Shown here: positions 2,600-22,931 of the stretch, piece by piece
Numbering within the stretch: the first letter of the stretch is position 1
How the letters are laid out: each line of letters opens with the position of its first letter
Source of the DNA: a virus
IMG/VR virus record: IMGVR_UViG_3300034272_001441
Location: 1-23,195 of that record
Length of the DNA stretch: 23,195 bases
Strand: one strand, 5' to 3'
Made by a program: the position numbers and the translations under genes
Notes under the pieces: model-generated
What the model saw: the letters and a program-made list of their open reading frames with translations, nothing else
What the model was told of the DNA's origin: nothing
Databases searched by the model: none

Positions 2600-3062
2600 A
2601 GTACGAACGACGGTACACTGGGTCGGCCAATTACACAAGCAAGGTGTAGCGTAGCATGGCGACGGGTGCACGAGCCGAGTGCGAAGGGGGCCAGTTGGCG
2701 AAAAAAAGTCTGAGGGGGGCTATGCGTCGCTGTCGTCGCCAGTCAGCCAGGCGCGACCCCCTCCCCCCCTGCCTCCGGTTTTGGCACGTCAAAATGCACT
2801 CCAACAGAGTAAATCCCCACTCTATATGATATGTGTTGTAAACTGTTATGGCCAACGTACTCAGCCGCAGCCGCTTGCAAGGGCCGTCCAAACGGAGCGC
2901 GACGGGATGGTCCGTTTGCTGGTCGGAGAGCGTCGATTGACGGGCCACGAGGGCCACGGAGCGGGGTGGCTGACGGCTCACATACACGCACGCGGTGATT
3001 GTATACAATCCAAGGGACGTAACGCATTTACTTCGTACACGAACTATCTCCACCGCACGCCC

Positions 3063-3164
3063 GCACTCGCCCGCACTCCGCAGCACGTCCCACAGTCACG
3101 CCTCTCGTGCACTCACCGAGCCGCACTCACTCGCACGCACGCACTCACCAGGCACGCACGCACT
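3063..3164. repeat. GCACTC / GCACGCACGCACT short-repeat array
   Basis: GCACTC occurs at 3063, 3073, 3109, 3123 and 3141. The 13-mer GCACGCACGCACT occurs exactly twice, at 3133-3145 and 3152-3164, 19 nt apart. It sits 30-170 nt upstream of the rightward promoter and resembles iterons or a clustered regulator-binding site. The pattern is visible directly; the role is inferred. Confidence 0.55.
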
Positions 3165-3197
3165 ACGCACTTTTCTTTGCCTATCGTCACTTTTTTG

Positions 3198-3228
3198 TTG
3201 CTTACTTGTGCAAAGCGCCGTATTTTTG
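3198..3228 (+). promoter_or_regulatory. Promoter of the rightward operon, predicting a near-leaderless mRNA
   Basis: Two readings fit the same DNA. Sigma70-like: TTGCTT (3198-3203), a 17-nt spacer, then TATTTT (3221-3226). Bacteroidota-like: TTG (3198-3200), 20 nt, then TATTTTTG (3221-3228), an exact match to TAnnTTTG. Either places transcription start at about 3232-3236, at or next to the ATG at 3236. Confidence 0.45.
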
Positions 3229-3235
3229 CCCTCGT

Positions 3236-3430
3236 ATGAATAACACATCACTAATCGACTCCCTAAACGCAGAGCTCCAATCAGCACAAGCGGAGCTACT
3301 TGCACTCCGCACGGCGGGCACGCTTGGTCTGAAGATCACAGAGGCTTATTTGCGTATTCTACACGCAACAAACGCCTTGATGGCCTACAGAGTCGCCGTG
3401 TTAGAGCGTGCTTGCGTAACACTAGCCTAA
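3236..3430 (+). CDS. Small helical protein, first gene of the rightward operon
   Basis: The 64-aa product is rich in Leu and Ala and almost entirely helical in pattern (SLIDSLNAELQSAQAELLALR), consistent with a short coiled coil or helical hairpin. No family recognised. The ATG at 3236 was chosen over upstream in-frame starts because those would add low-complexity sequence from the repeat array and because a promoter ends 8 nt upstream. It is the first of six same-strand genes before the terminator at 4814. The mRNA probably begins at or within a few nt of the start codon, so initiation would not use a Shine-Dalgarno site. Confidence 0.6.
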   Translation: MNNTSLIDSLNAELQSAQAELLALRTAGTLGLKITEAYLRILHATNALMAYRVAVLERACVTLA

Positions 3431-3454
3431 CCTTAACCAACCCAACCCAAACTT

Positions 3455-3631
3455 ATGATCGCTAATATCGTTACCATCTCAACCTACTGCCCACAATATC
3501 AGGCATTTGAGGAGCGCCAAATCTGGCTCAATCGTCGCTACCGTCTCACCTACAGAGGAGCGCAACGCATCATCAGTAAATCCCATCCATCATCAATCGT
3601 AACTCGTATTGAGACAGCAATCTACGCCTAA
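3455..3631 (+). CDS. Hypothetical protein, 58 aa
   Basis: Basic small protein with aromatic residues (MIANIVTISTYC..., then QIWLNRRYRLTYRGAQRIISK). No family recognised. Its leader from 3426 to 3456 contains no G, so there is no Shine-Dalgarno site. The next gene starts 5 nt after its stop. The conserved operon position and tight spacing are the main support for its being real. Confidence 0.5.
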   Translation: MIANIVTISTYCPQYQAFEERQIWLNRRYRLTYRGAQRIISKSHPSSIVTRIETAIYA

Positions 3632-3636
3632 ACCTT

Positions 3637-3780
3637 ATGACCATCGAATCCATGAATACCCTCGAACACATTGCATACGTACGACTTGCACTCATGCTCG
3701 CATCTGCGGGCTGCGTGCTCATCGCAGCTTCCCTTTGGGCGTCAATCTATTGTGACTGGCGCAAAAGCAATCGCAAGTAA
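3637..3780 (+). CDS. Single-pass membrane microprotein, 47 aa
   Basis: Residues about 16-38 form one hydrophobic helix (RLALMLASAGCVLIAASLWA), followed by a short basic tail (CDWRKSNRK). The tail suggests that the C-terminus faces the cytoplasm. It begins 5 nt after the previous stop in the same operon, with leader AACCTT and no Shine-Dalgarno site. A second in-frame ATG lies at codon 6. Function unknown; small early phage membrane proteins can alter host envelope or superinfection, but nothing in the sequence shows this. Confidence 0.5.
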   Translation: MTIESMNTLEHIAYVRLALMLASAGCVLIAASLWASIYCDWRKSNRK

Positions 3781-3813
3781 CAACCTCAAACCTAACATAC
3801 TACAAAAAACCAT

Positions 3814-4419
3814 ATGAACATTACACTATCACAACCATCGAAAATGCCATGCCAAGGATGGTCAATCCCTGCTCTCGCATGTAAGACAGGCTCCAAGCTC
3901 GCACAAGTCGTTGGATCCGTTTGTCATGGCTGTTACGCTTTGTCGGGCTTTTATCGCATGCCAAACGTCCAACGTGCGCTTCAGCAACGCCTTGCAATGA
4001 TGGATTCGCCCGAATGGGTGCCAGCGATGATTGCCAAGATTCGCGACACGGAGAAAAGCGGTTTCTTCCGTTGGTTCGATAGTGGGGACCTTCAGAGCAT
4101 TAAGACGCTGAAAGCAATCGTCCGCATCGCTATCGCTTTGCCAGAGATACAGTTTTGGCTCCCCACAAAGGAGTACGGCATCGTCTCCGAGTACGTTGAA
4201 TTGTTCGGCTCATTCCCTCCAAACCTTACCGTGCGTCTCTCCGCTTATATGGTCGACAAGGCTGGTCCCAACAGCCTAGCAGAAGGGTTGGGCGTCACCA
4301 CAAGCGAAGTCTCATCAACGGCGGGTACATGTCCGGCGCCTACGCAAGGAAACAAATGCGGCGAGTGCCGGGCATGCTGGAACAAAGACATTCAGACTGT
4401 CACCTATCGCCTGCACTAA
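3814..4419 (+). CDS. Cys-rich Gp88-like phage protein
   Basis: The 201-aa protein resembles the phage 'gene product 88' type family of unknown biochemistry. An N-terminal Cys cluster (C13, C23, C37, C40, within CHGCYALSGFYR) precedes the core motif FRWFDSGDLQS (about 85-95) and WLPTKEY (115-121). A C-terminal Cys cluster follows: C173, C182, C185 and C188 in CPAPTQGNKCGECRACW. The two Cys clusters suggest metal or iron-sulfur binding; this is inference from spacing. The start is supported by ATG 3814, preceded by 33 nt with no G. It is the largest gene of the rightward operon and the only one with recognisable family features, so it probably defines the operon's role. Confidence 0.7.
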   Translation: MNITLSQPSKMPCQGWSIPALACKTGSKLAQVVGSVCHGCYALSGFYRMPNVQRALQQRLAMMDSPEWVPAMIAKIRDTEKSGFFRWFDSGDLQSIKTLKAIVRIAIALPEIQFWLPTKEYGIVSEYVELFGSFPPNLTVRLSAYMVDKAGPNSLAEGLGVTTSEVSSTAGTCPAPTQGNKCGECRACWNKDIQTVTYRLH

Positions 4420-4423
4420 GCTC

Positions 4424-4591
4424 ATGAAACGCTACAAACTTACATACGCTGACCGATACTGCTACGCGCAATGCAATGGCACTCGCATTATTGAAGCTGA
4501 TTCAAACGAGTTTGCTCGTGAGCTTGCTTTGGAATGGCTAAGAGCCCACGGAGGAATTGAGGGCCTTCTCTGGTCACTTATTGAGGAATAA
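4424..4591 (+). CDS. Hypothetical protein, 55 aa
   Basis: The product starts MKRYKLTYADRYCYAQCNG and ends in an acidic helix (LLWSLIEE). No family recognised. It begins 4 nt after the Gp88-like gene stops and ends 3 nt before the next ATG, so it sits tightly inside the operon. ATG 4424 is the only sensible start. Codon use looks like its neighbours. Confidence 0.55.
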   Translation: MKRYKLTYADRYCYAQCNGTRIIEADSNEFARELALEWLRAHGGIEGLLWSLIEE

Positions 4592-4594
4592 TCG

Positions 4595-4807
4595 ATGAAC
4601 TACAAAATCCAAACTGCCGCCTGCTATGGCTGGGCTGACCTTAAGGAATGTGACAACGATTCGGACATCTATGTTGCCTGCACATTCGCAATCAAATCCG
4701 AAGCCGAATCAGAGCTTGCAGATATCCTAGATGGCTGCGACGGCTCGCCCGACGATTGGCGCATCGTGCCAGCTGACATGCCAGCCGATTGTGACATCTA
4801 CGAATAA
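4595..4807 (+). CDS. Acidic hypothetical protein, 70 aa
   Basis: Strongly acidic protein (many Asp and Glu, for example DLKECDNDSD and DGCDGSPDD) with scattered Cys residues at about 9, 19, 29, 48 and 66. No family recognised. Small acidic phage proteins sometimes mimic DNA to block host nucleases or regulators; that is only a possibility suggested by charge. It is the last gene of the rightward operon, and the terminator hairpin starts 7 nt after its stop. Confidence 0.6.
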   Translation: MNYKIQTAACYGWADLKECDNDSDIYVACTFAIKSEAESELADILDGCDGSPDDWRIVPADMPADCDIYE

Positions 4808-4813
4808 CCAAGC

Positions 4814-4846
4814 GCCCCTAGGTTACGCGCCTAGGGGCTTTCTTTT
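4814..4846 (+). terminator. Intrinsic terminator of the rightward operon
   Basis: A perfect 9-bp stem, GCCCCTAGG (4814-4822) with CCTAGGGGC (4830-4838), has a 7-nt loop and is followed by TTTCTTTT. It lies between convergent gene ends (4807 rightward, 4850 leftward). The leftward side lacks a good U-tract, so it should act mainly on the rightward transcript. Confidence 0.9.
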
Positions 4847-4849
4847 GCC

Positions 4850-15788: not shown

Positions 15789-18005
15789 TTATTTTGATTG
15801 TTTCAGTTCTCGTTTAATTGCGCCAACAATATCTTTAGTTGCCTTATCCTTGGCTTCTTGTTCACTTCTAAAAATGCCAACAAGTCGTCCATTGGAATCA
15901 AAAAGCTTATGAGACGTGTCGCTTTTGCTGACAATCTTCATTCCATTTACACCATCGGACAACACATATCCATCTCCAAGAGCCTCGCGACTGCTAGTCT
16001 TGTCCATGAAGGCAACAGGCATCTTCTTGCGCTCGATGTCACTAATTGCCTGTTGTTGCATCGTAGACTGCATAGCCTGAGTAATGCGCTTGGATAGCGC
16101 AAATTCTTCAGGTGAGCCAGCAGCAACTTTTGGCATTTTTAGCAGCAAATTGCGAACGCCTGGGGTTTCGTACAAACGTCCTAGTCCGTATGTAGCGCCT
16201 GCTACAAGGGCCGTACCAGCAAATCCGAGCGAATGCCCAATCATGCCAGCTATTGTTGGCAATAACAGCTTTTGTCCAGTAGAAGGATCGTAATTAAACT
16301 CTCCAGCTCTTTTTGTAAGATTTAAATATCGAGTAAGCCCATCAATCGCGTTTTTGTCTGCGCCACTAAAAAATATGCCAGTTTGTTTTTCTGCGCTTCC
16401 AAGATTTCCAAGAAATTGCACAGGAGAAAGTTGCTTTGTTTTGTTATCTAAAGACCTAGTCGCAACGTCTTCAAGAATAGCAGCGCGAGCAGAGGCTTGG
16501 CCCTTAGCATCAAGATTTTTATACAGCAACTCAACTTCGCTTTTAGATTTACTAAACAGTAATTTACTAGCAATTTCTTTATTTACAGTTCCTTTATTTA
16601 AGGCTGCTCTAAGTGCGGCGTCGTCTAGCTCTTTTGCCATTTCATGCAAATTAGTATTTGCAGATTCCCACGCATTTCTATCACGCCCGCTAGCTTCAAT
16701 GAAATCTCCTAGCTCTTGCTTGATTGCTCCATATACACGATCCATTGATTTGCCCGCCAATCCTTTAATTGACGCTAAATTTGGATCATCTAATAAGTCT
16801 CCAGCAAGTTTTAAATTGGCAGCTACCTGAGATGCTGTTTTCCCTTGAATCCCACTTTTAAACGATTCAAGCTCCGTAATAACTGAAGCAAGTCTATTTG
16901 GATTTACACCATTAAGGAACTTAATTTCGTCATCAATTGCTTTGACTGCGTTTGCAGTTGAAACTGTAACTCCAGTGCTATCAAGATCCTGCAAAATTCC
17001 TTTAACAATACTTGTGTTGGCAGAAAGTTCTGCTGCTCTTGTGGCGTTAAGGTTGGCAGTAACATCGCGAATTGCGTCACCTCCAACGGTTGCACTAAAC
17101 TGACCAAGTAAATCTTTAACAGCTTGAGTTCTTTCTTCTGATTGCTGAACAAGTGCGGCTCTTCCTCCAACAGCTTCTCGCACGTCTTGCATTCTGCGAC
17201 TTAACGGACCGCCAGGCTGAAGAACATCGGATGTACGAACAAGTCTTCCGGCAGACTCAGCCTCTGATATGGCTTGCGCAGTTTCTGCGGCAGTCATGCC
17301 TGCAACCGATGGACCTGTTGTTGGGGTTCTTGCCCCAGCAAGTTTTCCAGCAGCTAACCCGCCAGTCAGTCCTCCAACCAAGGATGCTGCAATCTGACCC
17401 TTTGTGCCTGCTCCCATTTCTTCAGCAAGATACCTTGCCCCTTCCGCTGTGGCTCCACCGGCAGCAGCGGCGGAAAGCTGTTGCAACGGCTTTTCTGCTA
17501 GCACAGCTCCAATCTTGCGTGCGGTTGCAGATGCAGCGCCTTTAAGCACATTCCCAATTCCAATGCCAGCAGCAGTGGATGCCACAGAACTCCCGACGGA
17601 TTCTGCAATACGCCCAGCTTCTGTGCTAGTTGGGTCAAGGCCCATCCGAGTGAACAGCTCACCAAAAAGCTCAGTAGGTGTTTTTAAATCAGTGCTCAGG
17701 AAGTGGTTCATCCCAAGCACCAATGGATCACCTATAAGCTGGCCTGCGGCAACGGCGGTTGCTCCCATTGCAGCCCCACCAGGAATAGGGCTTAGTAAGC
17801 CAGCAGTGGCACCTAGGGCAACTGGCCCCATTCCACGAGCTAGTCCACGAGCAACGTCTGCTGTTTCGCTAGTAGGCTCCTGCGCTGCCGTGGGCTGGCG
17901 CGAGCTTTGAGCGTATTGATTTACAGTTTGAGTGATTTGCTCAGTAGTTGCTTGGTCTGGAAACTCCAGTATGGTGCCATCAGGCAGTACAGCTTCTTGT
18001 GGCAT
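15789..18005 (-). CDS. Large virion protein, probable DNA-ejection (internal) protein, 738 aa
   Basis: The start MPQEAVLPDGTILEFPDQAT is a common N-terminus of phage virion-associated proteins. Residues 50-240 hold several Ala/Gly-rich hydrophobic helices (MGPVALGATAGLLSPIPGGA, AAGIGIGNVLKGAASATA, ASLVGGLTGGLAAGKLAG). A long helical, coiled-coil-like region (240-560) follows, then another hydrophobic pair (TIAGMIGHSLGFAGTALVAG). The basic C-terminus has a small domain with LFDSNGRLVGIFRSEQEAKD. Large helical proteins with membrane-like segments placed after tail genes in short-tailed phages form the ejection channel. Identity is inferred from layout, since no motif is diagnostic. Part of the gene (about 15.8-17.1 kb) is AT-richer than its neighbours. 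Confidence 0.65.
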   Translation of the reverse strand: MPQEAVLPDGTILEFPDQATTEQITQTVNQYAQSSRQPTAAQEPTSETADVARGLARGMGPVALGATAGLLSPIPGGAAMGATAVAAGQLIGDPLVLGMNHFLSTDLKTPTELFGELFTRMGLDPTSTEAGRIAESVGSSVASTAAGIGIGNVLKGAASATARKIGAVLAEKPLQQLSAAAAGGATAEGARYLAEEMGAGTKGQIAASLVGGLTGGLAAGKLAGARTPTTGPSVAGMTAAETAQAISEAESAGRLVRTSDVLQPGGPLSRRMQDVREAVGGRAALVQQSEERTQAVKDLLGQFSATVGGDAIRDVTANLNATRAAELSANTSIVKGILQDLDSTGVTVSTANAVKAIDDEIKFLNGVNPNRLASVITELESFKSGIQGKTASQVAANLKLAGDLLDDPNLASIKGLAGKSMDRVYGAIKQELGDFIEASGRDRNAWESANTNLHEMAKELDDAALRAALNKGTVNKEIASKLLFSKSKSEVELLYKNLDAKGQASARAAILEDVATRSLDNKTKQLSPVQFLGNLGSAEKQTGIFFSGADKNAIDGLTRYLNLTKRAGEFNYDPSTGQKLLLPTIAGMIGHSLGFAGTALVAGATYGLGRLYETPGVRNLLLKMPKVAAGSPEEFALSKRITQAMQSTMQQQAISDIERKKMPVAFMDKTSSREALGDGYVLSDGVNGMKIVSKSDTSHKLFDSNGRLVGIFRSEQEAKDKATKDIVGAIKRELKQSK

Positions 18006-18007
18006 AA

Positions 18008-19246
18008 TTAGTCTTGTATAGGCATATAAGCGCCACCCTTCATTTCAAAACGAATGCGCTTAGGCTTTTCTGAAGTAGGGGCCGATGGAGTTTGTGGAGT
18101 TACTCTTTTTCCTTCAAGCTCAGCCTCAAGGCCAGACTTAAACAAAGGAAGCGGTTTAAGCCCGGACACTCGTCCAAACCATTCTGGGGAAGAGGAAGCT
18201 TCAAGCTCAGAAATTCTTTCGTTTCTAACGCTTGCAATGCTATTGTAATTCCCTTTAATTTTTTCAATGTAATCATCTGGACGAGCAATGAATCCTGACT
18301 TTTTAGGGTCTGCAAGATACGTCATCAAATTATTTACATTTGCCGCTCCTCCTGGCAGTGTTTGAGCCCACAACTGGTAATCTCCAAGTTCTGGGGCTCC
18401 AAGGAAAAACTCACCAATCTGCATTGCATCTGTTCCGCCAGTTCCTGAAGACTGCGTAAGCTTTGGAATCATCAACTGTAGCCGCTCTCTCTTTTTATTG
18501 GGATCTTTTTCTTTTTCAGCAGCAGTAACCTCTTTGTAAACAATCTTTGACATGTCCCTTATTTTTGCAAGGTTGTCAATTTGAGGAATGATTACCTTTG
18601 CAGATGCACTGTCATCGAATGACTTAAGGTCTTCTGGATTAACGTATGTATCAATGGTATCTTTTAAAGTCCTAAAGATAAGATCTCTATCTCTTGGATT
18701 TTGCTGCGCCATTCGAAATGCATTCTGTTGCGCTTTTGCAATTTTTTCTCTAACGGCTTGCCTGCGGCTTTCATGTTGCCGCTCTGGATACATTGGAGCC
18801 TGCTCTGGCTGTGCCATCTCCTGTGGCGCAGTTGTCTGCGCCTGGGTAGTTGGCTGGGCAGTAGGCGGCATAACTGCCTGTTCCGGTCCAAAGTCTCCAC
18901 CAGATCCGCTATAACTGGTATCCATCGGAGCATTTGCTAAATTGTACTTAGCCATCTCCTGTGGAGTTAACTGCTGTGCTTGCTGTGGCGCGGCGACGGG
19001 AGCATTTGGTATATTATATTGAGCAAGCTCTTCTGGAGTTAGTTGCACTACCCGCTTGGGAGAGGCGTATGCGTACAAAGCCTCCTGTTGAGGAGTTAGT
19101 GGATAACCCATGTTTGGGTCGGAAAGATCTTCTGAAGGCGGCAAAACAGGTTGCTGTGCCCTTGCAAAATAATTATCAACCACTGTAGCCAATGGCCGAG
19201 CAGGTATTCTAGGAATATCTTCTGAAATGTAGTCGGAGAATGGCAT
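18008..19246 (-). CDS. Virion-associated protein with LTPxE repeats, 412 aa
   Basis: The N-terminal third is low-complexity, rich in Pro, Gln and Ala. It carries a repeat written LTPEELAQYNIPNAPV and LTPQEMAKYNLANAPM (about residues 69-108), with a degenerate third unit LTPQQEALYAYAS just before. A Pro/Gln/Thr-rich stretch (125-150) follows, then a basic helical region with charged coiled coil (AAEKEKDPNKKRERLQ). The C-terminal half has a globular look (DYQLWAQTLPGGAANVNNLM). It lies between two probable ejection proteins, with 2- and 11-nt gaps. The function is probably structural or ejection; no family is named with confidence. Confidence 0.6.
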   Translation of the reverse strand: MPFSDYISEDIPRIPARPLATVVDNYFARAQQPVLPPSEDLSDPNMGYPLTPQQEALYAYASPKRVVQLTPEELAQYNIPNAPVAAPQQAQQLTPQEMAKYNLANAPMDTSYSGSGGDFGPEQAVMPPTAQPTTQAQTTAPQEMAQPEQAPMYPERQHESRRQAVREKIAKAQQNAFRMAQQNPRDRDLIFRTLKDTIDTYVNPEDLKSFDDSASAKVIIPQIDNLAKIRDMSKIVYKEVTAAEKEKDPNKKRERLQLMIPKLTQSSGTGGTDAMQIGEFFLGAPELGDYQLWAQTLPGGAANVNNLMTYLADPKKSGFIARPDDYIEKIKGNYNSIASVRNERISELEASSSPEWFGRVSGLKPLPLFKSGLEAELEGKRVTPQTPSAPTSEKPKRIRFEMKGGAYMPIQD

Positions 19247-19257
19247 GTTAAAAAAAG

Positions 19258-20085
19258 TTATTGTCTAAAAAATGATTGATGCGCAGCCCCATAATCTACA
19301 CCTCCACCCCCTCCGCCACCCATACGTTCCATTGCAGGAGCGTTTCTTAGCCGCTGCAACTGTAGCTGCCTGCCAAAGTCTACATTTCCAGCGCCAGCTC
19401 GTGATAGCATTGGTAGTGTTTGCTGTAGGTATTGTGCGCCTTCAATTGTGCCAAGCGTGTCCTTGTACTTCATCAAAGCATCAACCTGCTCTTGTTTTAC
19501 TCCAGGATACAATGCCTCACGAACAGTAGGATCTTTAAGCGTGCCTTCTAAAATGCGATTGCTTTTATTTGCCGACTGTACGTCCTGAAAGTAAGACCCA
19601 ATTGCACCAGCGATTGCTTGTTGTGGCATAGCACTACCACCGCCTCCGCCTCCGCCTCCAGCTCCTCCACCCATTGCTCCCATAACTGCACTGTTAATCA
19701 AAGAACCCGTAACTCCTCTTCCTAAAGCGCCAGCAGTAGTGCTCAATCCACCAGCAAGCCCTTTAACGTTCGGAGCAACCGACCCTGCACCTGTAAAAGC
19801 CCCAAGCGCACCTTTGCCAAAAGTAGATAACCCAGCGCCAAGCCCGCCCGCCATTGCCCCCGGAGCAGCTAAAGCAGCAGCTCCACCTGTAAGTGCCGTT
19901 GCTCCAACTAAAATTGCCATATTTTGCAACGCCTTTTTTTTCTGCCGCTTTTGTTCGGCTATAGCATCTTCTCTATTTTCAATGCCAGCCTGCCCCGCTC
20001 CCATTCTTGAGTACGCACTGGCAATTTGACTGGCAATTTCTTGCGGGAAATAATCTCCAGCGTTAACTTGTGAAAATCCTTGCAT
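19258..20085 (-). CDS. Gly/Ala-rich virion protein, probable ejection protein, 275 aa
   Basis: A helical N-terminus with a charged segment (IENREDAIAEQKRQKKKALQ) leads into a long Ala/Gly hydrophobic region (MAILVGATALTGGAAALAAP). Then comes a run of eight Gly residues near 140-150, a helical domain (ILEGTLKDPTVREALYPGV), and a second Gly run near the C-terminus. Small phage proteins with this 'KKALQN-hydrophobic-Gly' plan are found beside internal virion proteins and could insert in the host membrane during DNA ejection. ATG 20085 lies in an AT-rich leader without a Shine-Dalgarno site. Assignment is by composition and position only. Confidence 0.6.
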   Translation of the reverse strand: MQGFSQVNAGDYFPQEIASQIASAYSRMGAGQAGIENREDAIAEQKRQKKKALQNMAILVGATALTGGAAALAAPGAMAGGLGAGLSTFGKGALGAFTGAGSVAPNVKGLAGGLSTTAGALGRGVTGSLINSAVMGAMGGGAGGGGGGGGSAMPQQAIAGAIGSYFQDVQSANKSNRILEGTLKDPTVREALYPGVKQEQVDALMKYKDTLGTIEGAQYLQQTLPMLSRAGAGNVDFGRQLQLQRLRNAPAMERMGGGGGGGVDYGAAHQSFFRQ

Positions 20086-20097
20086 ATAAATAACAGG

Positions 20098-22245
20098 TTA
20101 AACAATTTCACCGTTTTCGCGGATGAACGGCACATCCTCGCCAAGCAAATCAAAGACATTCATCCAAAATCCTTCAACTGGCTTAAACACCCAGCCGTGT
20201 TTGTTCTGGCCGTAGTACCACTTGGCAAATGACACTAGCGGATCTGCAAACAGTTTAGACACCGTAAACTTAAACAATTTAGACTTGCGCATCAAGGGCA
20301 CAAACACTTCTGCCAGCTTGTAGTAGCCACGACGATTGCGCGGCGTCACATGCTCGTCTCTGTAGCGGCGGACAACTTCATCCATCACGCCATTCCCGTA
20401 GCGAGCCTCTAGCATAATAAAGCAGCATAGGCCTCCACCACCGCCACCTGAAGGTTGGCTTGCTCTTCCTTGTAGGTATGAGGCAGCAAAGTTTGCTTGG
20501 TTGCTATACTGACTCATCGTGTTTTGATAAGGCAGCATGTTCAGCCCGGTAATCACAGGATTAGTCGGGTTAGCAATGTTTAGCCCGGCTTGAGCGTACT
20601 GATTCTGCGCTTGGTTAGCAGACGTGCCATAAGCGCCCTGTGTTGGCGGCACATTAAAATATGCGGCCATCGCTGGGGCCAGCGCCTGTTGTTGTGTGCC
20701 AAGAGTGCTTGCGGCAATGTTAGCCGCATTTGACTGTAGCGTGTTTGCAGCCTGCAAGCGACCAGACTCGGCTTCTCCTCTGGCAAGAGCTTGACCAAAC
20801 TGTTGGCCCTGAATAGCAGCTTGTTGTTGCTCTCTAGTAGCAGCTTGACCAAACTGTTGGCCTTGTGCGCCTAATTCGTATTGCTCGGCTCCTGCTTGTC
20901 TGGCGTATGTCTGTGCCAAAGCTGGCTGATACAAATTGGAAATTGTGCCCATTGCCTGTTGGGCAGCAGCCTGACGCTCACGATACCGTTGGTTTGCGAG
21001 CTCTTCCCGATTGAGTACTTCCGAGGTGATTGCCTGCGGGCCAAGAGCCATTCCACGGGCAGCGTAAGCCTCGCGAGCAGCTTGGGTGGCCAGACGTTCT
21101 TGTTCTGGCGTTAAAGATCTTCCAAGGGATAGGTCCAAGTTGATTTGCTGGCCAAGACGCTGCGCTCCCTCCTTAACTCCGGGCATTGCCCCCATGTATT
21201 GGTTTACAAGGTTTTGATCAATCGTGCCAAGATCGGATTGTAACTGTGGACCTGCAACCTTACCAAGCTCTTGGCCATAGGTTGGCCCTGCTACCTGTTG
21301 CTCAAACGCAGTAAGCTGTGGTGCCTGTGTGGCTTTTTGTGCCATCTGCGAGCCAAGCTGTCCAAGCGACTGTAGAGTCTGCTCTGCGCCCGGCATTTGA
21401 GATAAATACTGCTCGCTGTACTGCGGCATCAACTCTTGGTACTGCCCCAACTTGCCCCGCTGAATAGCTTGGTTAAAGAGCGTGTCTGCGCGTGCCGCCA
21501 GCTCGGCAGTAGGAATGTTGGCAAACCGAGCGTCGTATTGAGCAAGCGTCTGTTGTTCTGCTGCGGTAAGTTCGGGCTTACTGCGAAGCGCACTAACTTC
21601 AGGCGTGTCTGTTGCAGCCTGAATGTTCTTGATCATCTGCTCGCGTTGAGCCTGACCTGTGACCTGAGCTAGCTGCGGTGCGTATTGCAGTTCAAGGTTT
21701 GCCGCCTCTCCTAAGACGGCCTTCATGGCATCTACGTTCTCTTGTAGAATAGCCTTTGTGTCGGGAGGCTGAAGAGACTTGGCGTATACAGCTAGCTGTC
21801 CGATGGTGGGCGTGTCTTTGTCTCCGGGCTTTTTGCCCAAGGCAGCGTAAGCAGTTGTGCTGCCTGTCTTATAAGAGGACTCAAGTAATTTGAGCTTTTC
21901 GCCAGCTAAAGCTCTGACTTCAGCAGAATAACTTCCAGAATCAGATATGATTTCTTGTAATCTATTCTTAGAATCTAAATATAAGTTATTCCACTGAGAA
22001 AGATATTCTCCGTCCCTTGCTTTTTCTGATTGTAATTTTGGAAGTGCTATTTCGTTAACTTGTTTTAAAAAATTGCGCTGTTTTTCGCCAAGCGTCATTG
22101 CAGATTGTTTTTTTACATATTCTGCACTTGGAACCCAACGAGTTCCATCATATGTGTATCCGCCTTGAGTTTGCCCTTCTTTCGGCGTTCCACTAAAAAG
22201 GGCGCTATATGGCCCTAAATATGTAGCAAGAGTAGGTTCTGCCAT
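20098..22245 (-). CDS. Large Gln/Ala-rich virion protein with C-terminal CFI-box-like domain, 715 aa
   Basis: Residues 1-600 are helical and rich in Gln, Ala and Leu, with many heptad-like stretches and short repeats (GQQFGQAATREQQQAAIQGQ). They suggest a long fibrous or coiled-coil virion protein. A six-Gly linker at about 600-605 leads to a distinct C-terminal domain of about 110 residues. It begins LCCFIMLEARYGNGVMDEVV and continues RRYRDEHVTPRNRRGYYKLA and PLMRKSKL. This resembles the 'CFI-box' C-terminal domain. The end is aromatic and globular (PVEGFWMNVFDLLGEDVPFI). Upstream neighbour is the fibre-like gene, downstream are ejection-type proteins. ATG 22245 has an AT-rich leader and no Shine-Dalgarno site. 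Confidence 0.68.
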   Translation of the reverse strand: MAEPTLATYLGPYSALFSGTPKEGQTQGGYTYDGTRWVPSAEYVKKQSAMTLGEKQRNFLKQVNEIALPKLQSEKARDGEYLSQWNNLYLDSKNRLQEIISDSGSYSAEVRALAGEKLKLLESSYKTGSTTAYAALGKKPGDKDTPTIGQLAVYAKSLQPPDTKAILQENVDAMKAVLGEAANLELQYAPQLAQVTGQAQREQMIKNIQAATDTPEVSALRSKPELTAAEQQTLAQYDARFANIPTAELAARADTLFNQAIQRGKLGQYQELMPQYSEQYLSQMPGAEQTLQSLGQLGSQMAQKATQAPQLTAFEQQVAGPTYGQELGKVAGPQLQSDLGTIDQNLVNQYMGAMPGVKEGAQRLGQQINLDLSLGRSLTPEQERLATQAAREAYAARGMALGPQAITSEVLNREELANQRYRERQAAAQQAMGTISNLYQPALAQTYARQAGAEQYELGAQGQQFGQAATREQQQAAIQGQQFGQALARGEAESGRLQAANTLQSNAANIAASTLGTQQQALAPAMAAYFNVPPTQGAYGTSANQAQNQYAQAGLNIANPTNPVITGLNMLPYQNTMSQYSNQANFAASYLQGRASQPSGGGGGGLCCFIMLEARYGNGVMDEVVRRYRDEHVTPRNRRGYYKLAEVFVPLMRKSKLFKFTVSKLFADPLVSFAKWYYGQNKHGWVFKPVEGFWMNVFDLLGEDVPFIRENGEIV
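20788..20862. repeat. 21-nt direct repeat inside the 715-aa gene
   Basis: An identical 21-mer beginning AGCTTGACCAAACTG occurs at 20788-20808 and 20842-20862, 54 nt (18 codons) apart. It encodes the repeated peptide GQQFGQA, so the protein has grown by in-frame tandem duplication. Confidence 0.75.
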
Positions 22246-22253
22246 ACGATTAA

Positions 22254-22931
22254 TTAGTTAAATGATCCCCAGTGTGCAACTTGGGTTGGGTTATCTTGAA
22301 GAGCAACAAAAACAAACTCTTGGGTGCCGCTCGTGGCTGTAGCTGTTACTATGTTTGTGGCAACTGCGCTTGGTTGAAAGTTGATCGTGGCGCTGCCAGA
22401 AAATGCCACTTTAAAGTTAAACGTTGCACCATTCTTGCAGGTTCCCGGCAACTTAATTGTCTGCACAGCAGGAGCAGTTAGAGTATACTTGTAGAACTGC
22501 GAGAATGCAGTGGACGTCGTTAGTGTCTGAGTAGCCGTGCCAGACAGTGATGCCGTAGCAAACGATGCTAGCGGCGCAGCAGCGAGGGTGATCGCTCCAG
22601 CAGCGTTGGTGACAGTCAGATTGGATCCAGCAGTCAGCGTTGCCTTTGTAAACTGACTGGTAGTCGTGTTGCCGATTAGAAGCTGCCCATTTGTGGCCGG
22701 AGATAGAGTTCCGTTTACAGCCTGACTAAGCGTTGCACTTCTTAATGCGCCACCAGTCACGATGGCAATTTGGGCAGATGAAAGCGAATTAACTTGCGAG
22801 GTAGCAATTGCAGCTTGATCTGTAATAGATCCCGGCAACAAGGCCGCATTGTCTACATGCGCATTTAAGTTATCAATTGTTACAGTAGGGCTACCTGCTG
22901 AATAAGTTGTTCCTTTTTGAATTTGAGCCAT
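22254..22931 (-). CDS. Tail-fibre-like structural protein, 225 aa
   Basis: Rich in Thr, Ala, Ser and Asn, with no Cys clusters or charged enzymatic motifs. The segment NGQLLIGNTTTSQFTKATLT, then AGSNLTVTNAAGAITLAAA (about residues 80-118), is a pattern very common in trimeric beta-helical phage fibres. A C-terminal beta domain (FYKYTLTAPAVQTIKLPGTC, then FVFVALQDNPTQVAHWGSF) closes the protein. It may be a short fibre or the distal part of a host-recognition complex. ATG 22931 has a GGAG site 8 nt upstream, unlike the other virion genes. It is followed 8 nt later by the 715-aa gene. Confidence 0.72.
   Translation of the reverse strand: MAQIQKGTTYSAGSPTVTIDNLNAHVDNAALLPGSITDQAAIATSQVNSLSSAQIAIVTGGALRSATLSQAVNGTLSPATNGQLLIGNTTTSQFTKATLTAGSNLTVTNAAGAITLAAAPLASFATASLSGTATQTLTTSTAFSQFYKYTLTAPAVQTIKLPGTCKNGATFNFKVAFSGSATINFQPSAVATNIVTATATSGTQEFVFVALQDNPTQVAHWGSFN

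Follow-up and report, generated by a model that had tools for sequence, protein, structure and literature searches.

G-free, ACA-rich leaders and a probable near-leaderless first gene in a variable phage operon, with a candidate Shine-Dalgarno-independent mode of initiation

The rightward operon and its relatives

The window, that is the whole stretch of DNA analysed here, is a contig of 23,195 bases from an uncultured phage, in which most genes are oriented leftward. The rightward operon, located at 3236-4807 on the plus strand, comprises g1, g2, g3, a GP88-family gene, g5 and g6. The first gene, g1 (64 aa, 3236-3430), is followed after its stop by a G-free leader of 24 nt, CCTTAACCAACCCAACCCAAACTT (3431-3454), and by g2 (58 aa, 3455-3631), which has a homologue in the related loci L015 and L016 (97%). 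A short leader of 5 nt, ACCTT (3632-3636), also devoid of G, precedes g3 (47 aa, 3637-3780), a gene absent from the list drawn up by the sequence-only reading and whose product contains a hydrophobic segment, as judged by eye. The GP88-family protein (201 aa, PF17338, Pfam 7.2e-26; 3814-4419) is encoded downstream of a G-free, ACA-rich leader of 33 nt (3781-3813) that is predicted to be unfolded and harbors at 3794-3806 the sequence AACATACTACAAA, a one-change version of a leader word shared among relatives. After g5 (55 aa, 4424-4591; leader of 4 nt) and g6 (70 aa, 4595-4807; leader of 3 nt), the operon ends with a terminator-like hairpin (4814-4838) and its T-rich tail (together 4814-4848). 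Pfam and PHROG searches within the operon matched the GP88 gene alone and gave no match for g1, g2, g3, g5 or g6.

A search with the GP88 protein yielded 59 loci (L002-L060), including close relatives with 86-100% identity (L002-L038 and L042-L043). Removal of identical operons left 23 distinct operons with 79 genes, which were called by a simple length-maximising chain, the first gene of L006 and L017 being replaced by hand. Across these 23 operons (L005, L009, L012, L014, L015, L022, L029 and others), 21 protein families were found, and g3, present in 23 of 23, and GP88 were the only constant members, as in a variable cargo site.

Megablast against named phages gave no match for the window, comparison of its large terminase (TerL, PF03237, encoded leftward) with the nearest named phages gave distant matches only, and tRNA and Rfam scans of the window found nothing. 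A terminase search showed that at least 594 stretches encode a relative. Among the terminase matches listed, those of L111, L114, L116, L127, L131 and others either span 1914 bases versus 1518 or begin only at about residue 90-92, which suggests an insertion of about 396 bases in the large subunit of part of the relatives. The leftward genes also include a group of long ORFs at 15789-22931 and, between two helicase ORFs, a Mom-family gene and a PDDEXK nuclease gene. These helicase ORFs, 12394-11684(-) and 9394-8810(-), appear to be a split DnaB-type helicase, one covering positions 2-44 of the DnaB_C profile and the other 49-255; about 2.3 kb of other genes, including the Mom-family and PDDEXK genes, lie between the halves, and the C part is kept in relatives, where its upstream neighbours differ.

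Promoter block and first gene

To compare the region preceding g1, 34 relatives were aligned with the window, giving 35 loci that all hold the leftward neighbour (2599) and GP88. All 35 display the same arrangement: CTTTTTT[GA]TTGC, a gap of 18-19 bases, a TAnnTTTG-like element and finally CnCnCGT, the first and last of these being in some loci replaced by a near variant. In the window, the upstream, -33/-35-like block is CTTTTTTGTTGC (3190-3201), and the -7/-10-like element TATTTTTG (3221-3228) ends 7 nt ahead of the ATG at 3236, the constant block, here CCCTCGT, extending up to the start codon (3221-3235 with the element). Immediately after this promoter block, 17 of the 35 loci have an ATG and 17 a [CT]AGT leader, neither being clear in L022. 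Directly upstream of it, tandem-like CGCACT/CGCA repeats occupy 3058-3170 of the window, and similar CA/CG-rich stretches are visible upstream of the promoter in L024 and L029.

The pattern TTTG-N17-24-TAnnTTTG matched three times in the window versus 0.55 expected, and a scan for E. coli-type promoters found none at this site. Of 12 contigs scanned with a matrix derived from the aligned blocks, 11 contained a single strong site, scoring 32-42 where the next non-overlapping best reached about 18 and random maxima 5-17, and the remaining one, G012, contained none; since those blocks were themselves the source of the matrix, uniqueness, and not score, counts as the result. The type of promoter is uncertain. 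A TAnnTTTG-like element is common to this window and to the Bacteroidota promoters described in PMC6847099, and the window's TATTTTTG fits the refined sigma-ABfr consensus TAHHTTTG, but that consensus is broken in several relatives, with some members having a G inside the spacer and those with TAGATTTG, TATGTTTG or TAGTCTCG not fitting it. With the spacing of 4-5 nt between promoter element and transcript start given in PMC6847099 for Flavobacterium, the leader of g1 would be 2-3 nt.

Three observations support the leaderless ATG. Codon differences in g1 are mostly synonymous, as under coding selection, with synonymous to amino-acid-changing ratios in three pairs of 19:3 (window against L005), 16:4 and 15:1; an in-frame stop lies 15 nt upstream of the leaderless ATG in L014; and three unrelated protein families use the same start position. 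Ratios are weaker in other leaderless pairs (9:9 for L024/L014, and 11:5 to 15:14 and similar for an 84-aa family). The near-leaderless first gene proposed by the sequence-only reading is supported by promoter geometry and conservation, which would place the 5′ end about 0-5 nt from the start codon of g1.

This proposed arrangement resembles the leaderless bacterial mRNAs presented in PMC9031893, such as lambda cI, in which the start codon lies at or beside the 5′ end, the start region is unfolded and the early codons are A/C-rich. Passages of that article also report that CA repeats downstream of the ATG, as well as lack of structure, favor leaderless translation. In the phages, the first 50 nt of the distinct leaderless genes had a predicted minimum free energy of 0 to -3.3 kcal/mol in 11 of 11 cases, a start region without predicted structure. 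G accounts for 7.7% of codons 2-10 in leaderless genes and 8.2% in internal genes, so leaderless genes are not distinguished by the CA richness of their early codons. Unlike leaderless mRNAs in general, the configuration here is confined to the gene that opens a variable operon, is seen in 17 of 35 loci and has a transcript start that we infer.

G-free leaders and a shared leader word

The absence of G before the genes at 3455 and 3814, stated in the sequence-only reading, is exact: the G-free runs span 3426-3456 (31 nt) and 3778-3815 (38 nt), and the latter is the longest in the window, both strands included. Under a first-order model of the operon, one expects 0.66 runs of at least 24 nt and 0.06 of at least 33 nt, so that in the window alone these leaders are suggestive and provide modest evidence. 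Comparison across relatives makes the case overwhelming. Scoring the internal leaders of at least 9 nt in the 23 distinct operons (n = 53), we found the last 20 nt free of G in 39, versus 0.8% expected, while 14 do carry G there; G represents 1.6% of internal leaders versus 23.5% of coding sequence. The description of these leaders as C/A-rich and unstructured also held, with 51% A, 36% C and a mean predicted folding energy of -0.4 kcal/mol for positions -30 to +20, versus -9.5 kcal/mol in 300 random coding windows. Since most of them lack G, entirely or nearly, and are rich in A and C, these leaders would leave no possibility for a Shine-Dalgarno (SD) duplex or a stable hairpin. The [CT]AGT leaders of first genes follow the same trend (8 of 11 G-free in the last 20 nt). 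By comparison, none of the 34 leftward starts of the window has G-free last 20 nt, and their mean fold is -6.3 kcal/mol; three of these starts have mis-set coordinates (10068, 11450 and 13535) and some GTG/TTG starts are doubtful, but removing them changes nothing because every start listed has at least one G.

The explanation that any unselected gap on a C-rich plus strand would lack G agrees with the mostly negative GC skew of the plus strand of the window. However, the noncoding DNA upstream of the promoter, between the divergent genes, contains 29.4% G in 23,812 b and 0.42 G-free runs of at least 20 nt per kb. As this DNA is not G-poor, strand bias alone is not the cause; nor would composition explain an exact recurring word. 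Plain strand composition is therefore disfavoured, and we give it hardly any credence.

The word in question, CACTACAA, occurs exactly in 29 of the 53 internal leaders, placing ACA motifs directly upstream of these starts, whereas 500 shuffles gave a mean of 0.3 and a maximum of 3; these 29 leaders are related and do not represent 29 independent events. In 22 of the 29, the word ends 8, 9 or 11 nt before the ATG. A loose pattern for CACTACAA-like words precedes 12 of the 21 protein families, and position -3 of the leaders is mainly C (71%). In the GP88 relatives of 68-71% identity (L039-L041), the upstream sequence is mostly A/C-rich, and GP88 genes of distant phages (42-48%) often have AGGA or GGAG upstream instead. 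A scan of viral contigs for AACACACTACAAA-N4-10-ATG returned at least 120 stretches; 125 loci (L203-L327, including loci from the promoter scan) were scored, 28 of them belonging to the group by shared proteins. Among the listed loci, motif sites were G-free up to the ATG in 31 of 39 cases in the group versus 18 of 97 outside it, and outside the group no listed locus had the motif twice, which is consistent with chance.

Reuse of one word before 12 of 21 families, in an operon whose content varies from phage to phage, could also mean that the shared leader serves chiefly as a DNA joint through which cassettes are swapped by recombination, its G-free make-up being a by-product of copying an ancestral leader. 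Two observations argue against this possibility: the leaders of orthologous g3 genes differ in sequence yet mostly stay free or nearly free of G, and the distance from the word to the ATG varies by no more than a few bases. We consider such an origin improbable as the main explanation, and the two roles, DNA joint and translation, can coexist. The leaders of g2 differ between the window and L015, and both are G-free.

Rho-loading (rut) sites are characterized by an excess of C over G and little structure, and the usual rut site is longer than the leaders considered here. The leaders share this composition and lack of structure, and could accordingly serve to cut off the operon when translation fails; nevertheless, they are short (about 10-37 nt) and contain more A than C, making this function very unlikely.

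The word was also considered as a possible anchor for rRNA pairing. This candidate was rejected: no match to AACACACTACAAA recurs consistently among four 16S sequences from the candidate host order, in which hits vary and remain within the shuffled range. If CACTACAA is read specifically, a protein would then be the better candidate, as no consistent 16S complement exists in this sample. Its SD-like placement 8-11 nt before the ATG, its reuse before some 12 unrelated families and this same result could fit recognition by a trans-acting factor, such as an RNA-binding or ribosomal protein encoded by the phage or its host. We hold this reading to be doubtful; if true, it would amount to a private, sequence-specific initiation code through which the cargo genes are translated as one regulon.

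Separately, a conserved structured RNA element is predicted directly upstream of the ACA leader at L015:4448-4533. It was found in 11 loci (L015, L005, L006, L009, L012, L014, L022, L023, L024, L027 and L029) and has 16 consensus pairs, of which two show changes on both sides. Its GGGAGC has two possible pairing partners, one upstream and one downstream. The GP88 leader of the window is without this element.

Probable initiation without Shine-Dalgarno sites and the candidate host

According to the sequence-only reading, other genes of this genome use AGGAGG, and the operon would contrast with them by a different initiation mode. The first statement was not confirmed: in 12 contigs, SD-like words were found 4-16 nt before 41 of 385 ORF starts versus 43 of 385 control positions further upstream. 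As such words are no commoner at starts than further upstream, the whole phage is SD-poor. The conserved AGGAGG ahead of the 13689 start lies within the last codons of the preceding gene (GAG GAG GAC GAT). The clearest SD in a true intergenic leader, within the window gene set, is GTCAGGAGTAATT-ATG at 22931, which is conserved wherever the start of a relative can be aligned. Applied to several other phages, this crude test does reveal SD use, with 4 of 8 versus 0 and 4 of 5 versus 0 in two loci, and is less clear elsewhere (L055, 1 of 11 versus 2). Initiation independent of SD is supported, and the contrast with AGGAGG-using genes falls; the operon is distinguished by leaders that are long, rich in ACA and free of G.

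Similar features are known from bacteria. As described in PMC3879156, ACA motifs shortly upstream of the start raise translation of yifK and dppA in Salmonella, dppA losing more than 100-fold when all four motifs are replaced, and the same article cites an ACAA repeat as active in the absence of an SD. The phage leaders have ACA triplets in the same place; however, the Salmonella enhancers act beside an SD, whereas here there is no SD and a single word recurs ahead of many genes. Bacteroidota also initiate without SD, according to PMC6847099, from A-rich, unstructured upstream sequences comparable to those of the phages, but with A at position -3 where the phages mainly have C.

Our preferred reading, with a probability of roughly 0.7, is SD-independent initiation combining a leaderless first gene with unstructured, ACA-rich leaders that act as enhancers for variable cargo genes. 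The rightward operon would be a single variable cargo operon with one promoter of its own. Its transcript would begin at the first ATG or a few bases from it in about half of the phages, giving a leaderless mRNA, and in the remaining ones would open with a short leader resembling [CT]AGTCCAACC. Entry into most later genes would be via about 10-37 nt of leader sequence with abundant A and C and with G absent or nearly so, in which CACTACAA, about 8-11 nt before the ATG in many cases, may serve as a translation enhancer; the ribosomes doing the reading would be those of a host in which SD sites are scarce. Neither leaderless mRNAs nor ACA enhancers are new in themselves; the novelty lies in a phage operon reusing its own G-free leader word. 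Searches of open-licence PMC papers for phage genes without leaders, viral genomes lacking SD and leaders depleted of G listed no title or abstract describing this operon.

In SD-scarce bacteria, the way in which ribosomes choose a start without SD is still an open question. These phages offer a natural pairing of leaderless and leadered first genes behind one promoter, as well as one ortholog, g3, with many different leaders in which the G-free rule is mostly kept. Such natural promoter and leader variants form a ready panel for testing which non-SD leader features matter, and the leader could become a strong expression part for hosts that ignore SD.

As to the host, a search by TerL alignment found nothing. 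With a 205-aa query, a TerL stretch 71% identical was found in a 13.5-kb phage-like contig of a Pedosphaera (Verrucomicrobiota) MAG, and the reading of this contig suggests genes shared with the window phage. TerL matched 5 genomes out of 293 in the order and 11 out of 288 in the phylum, the Pedosphaera MAG being counted in both and this phylum alone being sampled; among the matches listed, all except the Pedosphaera MAG have 26-42% identity. A verrucomicrobial host is thus a lead, not proof. Some Verrucomicrobia are SD-scarce and have kept CCUCC, as reported in PMC10783764, and 4 of 6 sampled 16S loci of the candidate order show the CCTCC end. The leader word is not enriched in that order, ACACTACAA-N7-11-ATG being rare and about equal to control in 39 genomes, and the link consists of one contig. 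Likewise, TTG-N19-TAnnTTTG was not above the reversed control in 58 pooled genomes of the order. In the candidate host MAG, with leftmost-ATG starts, SD-like words preceded 9 of 155 starts versus 5 of 155 controls, a weak difference given unrefined start calls. On its phage-like contig, a run of AAAC repeats (L142:7300-7330) precedes one gene start and forms a G-free leader.
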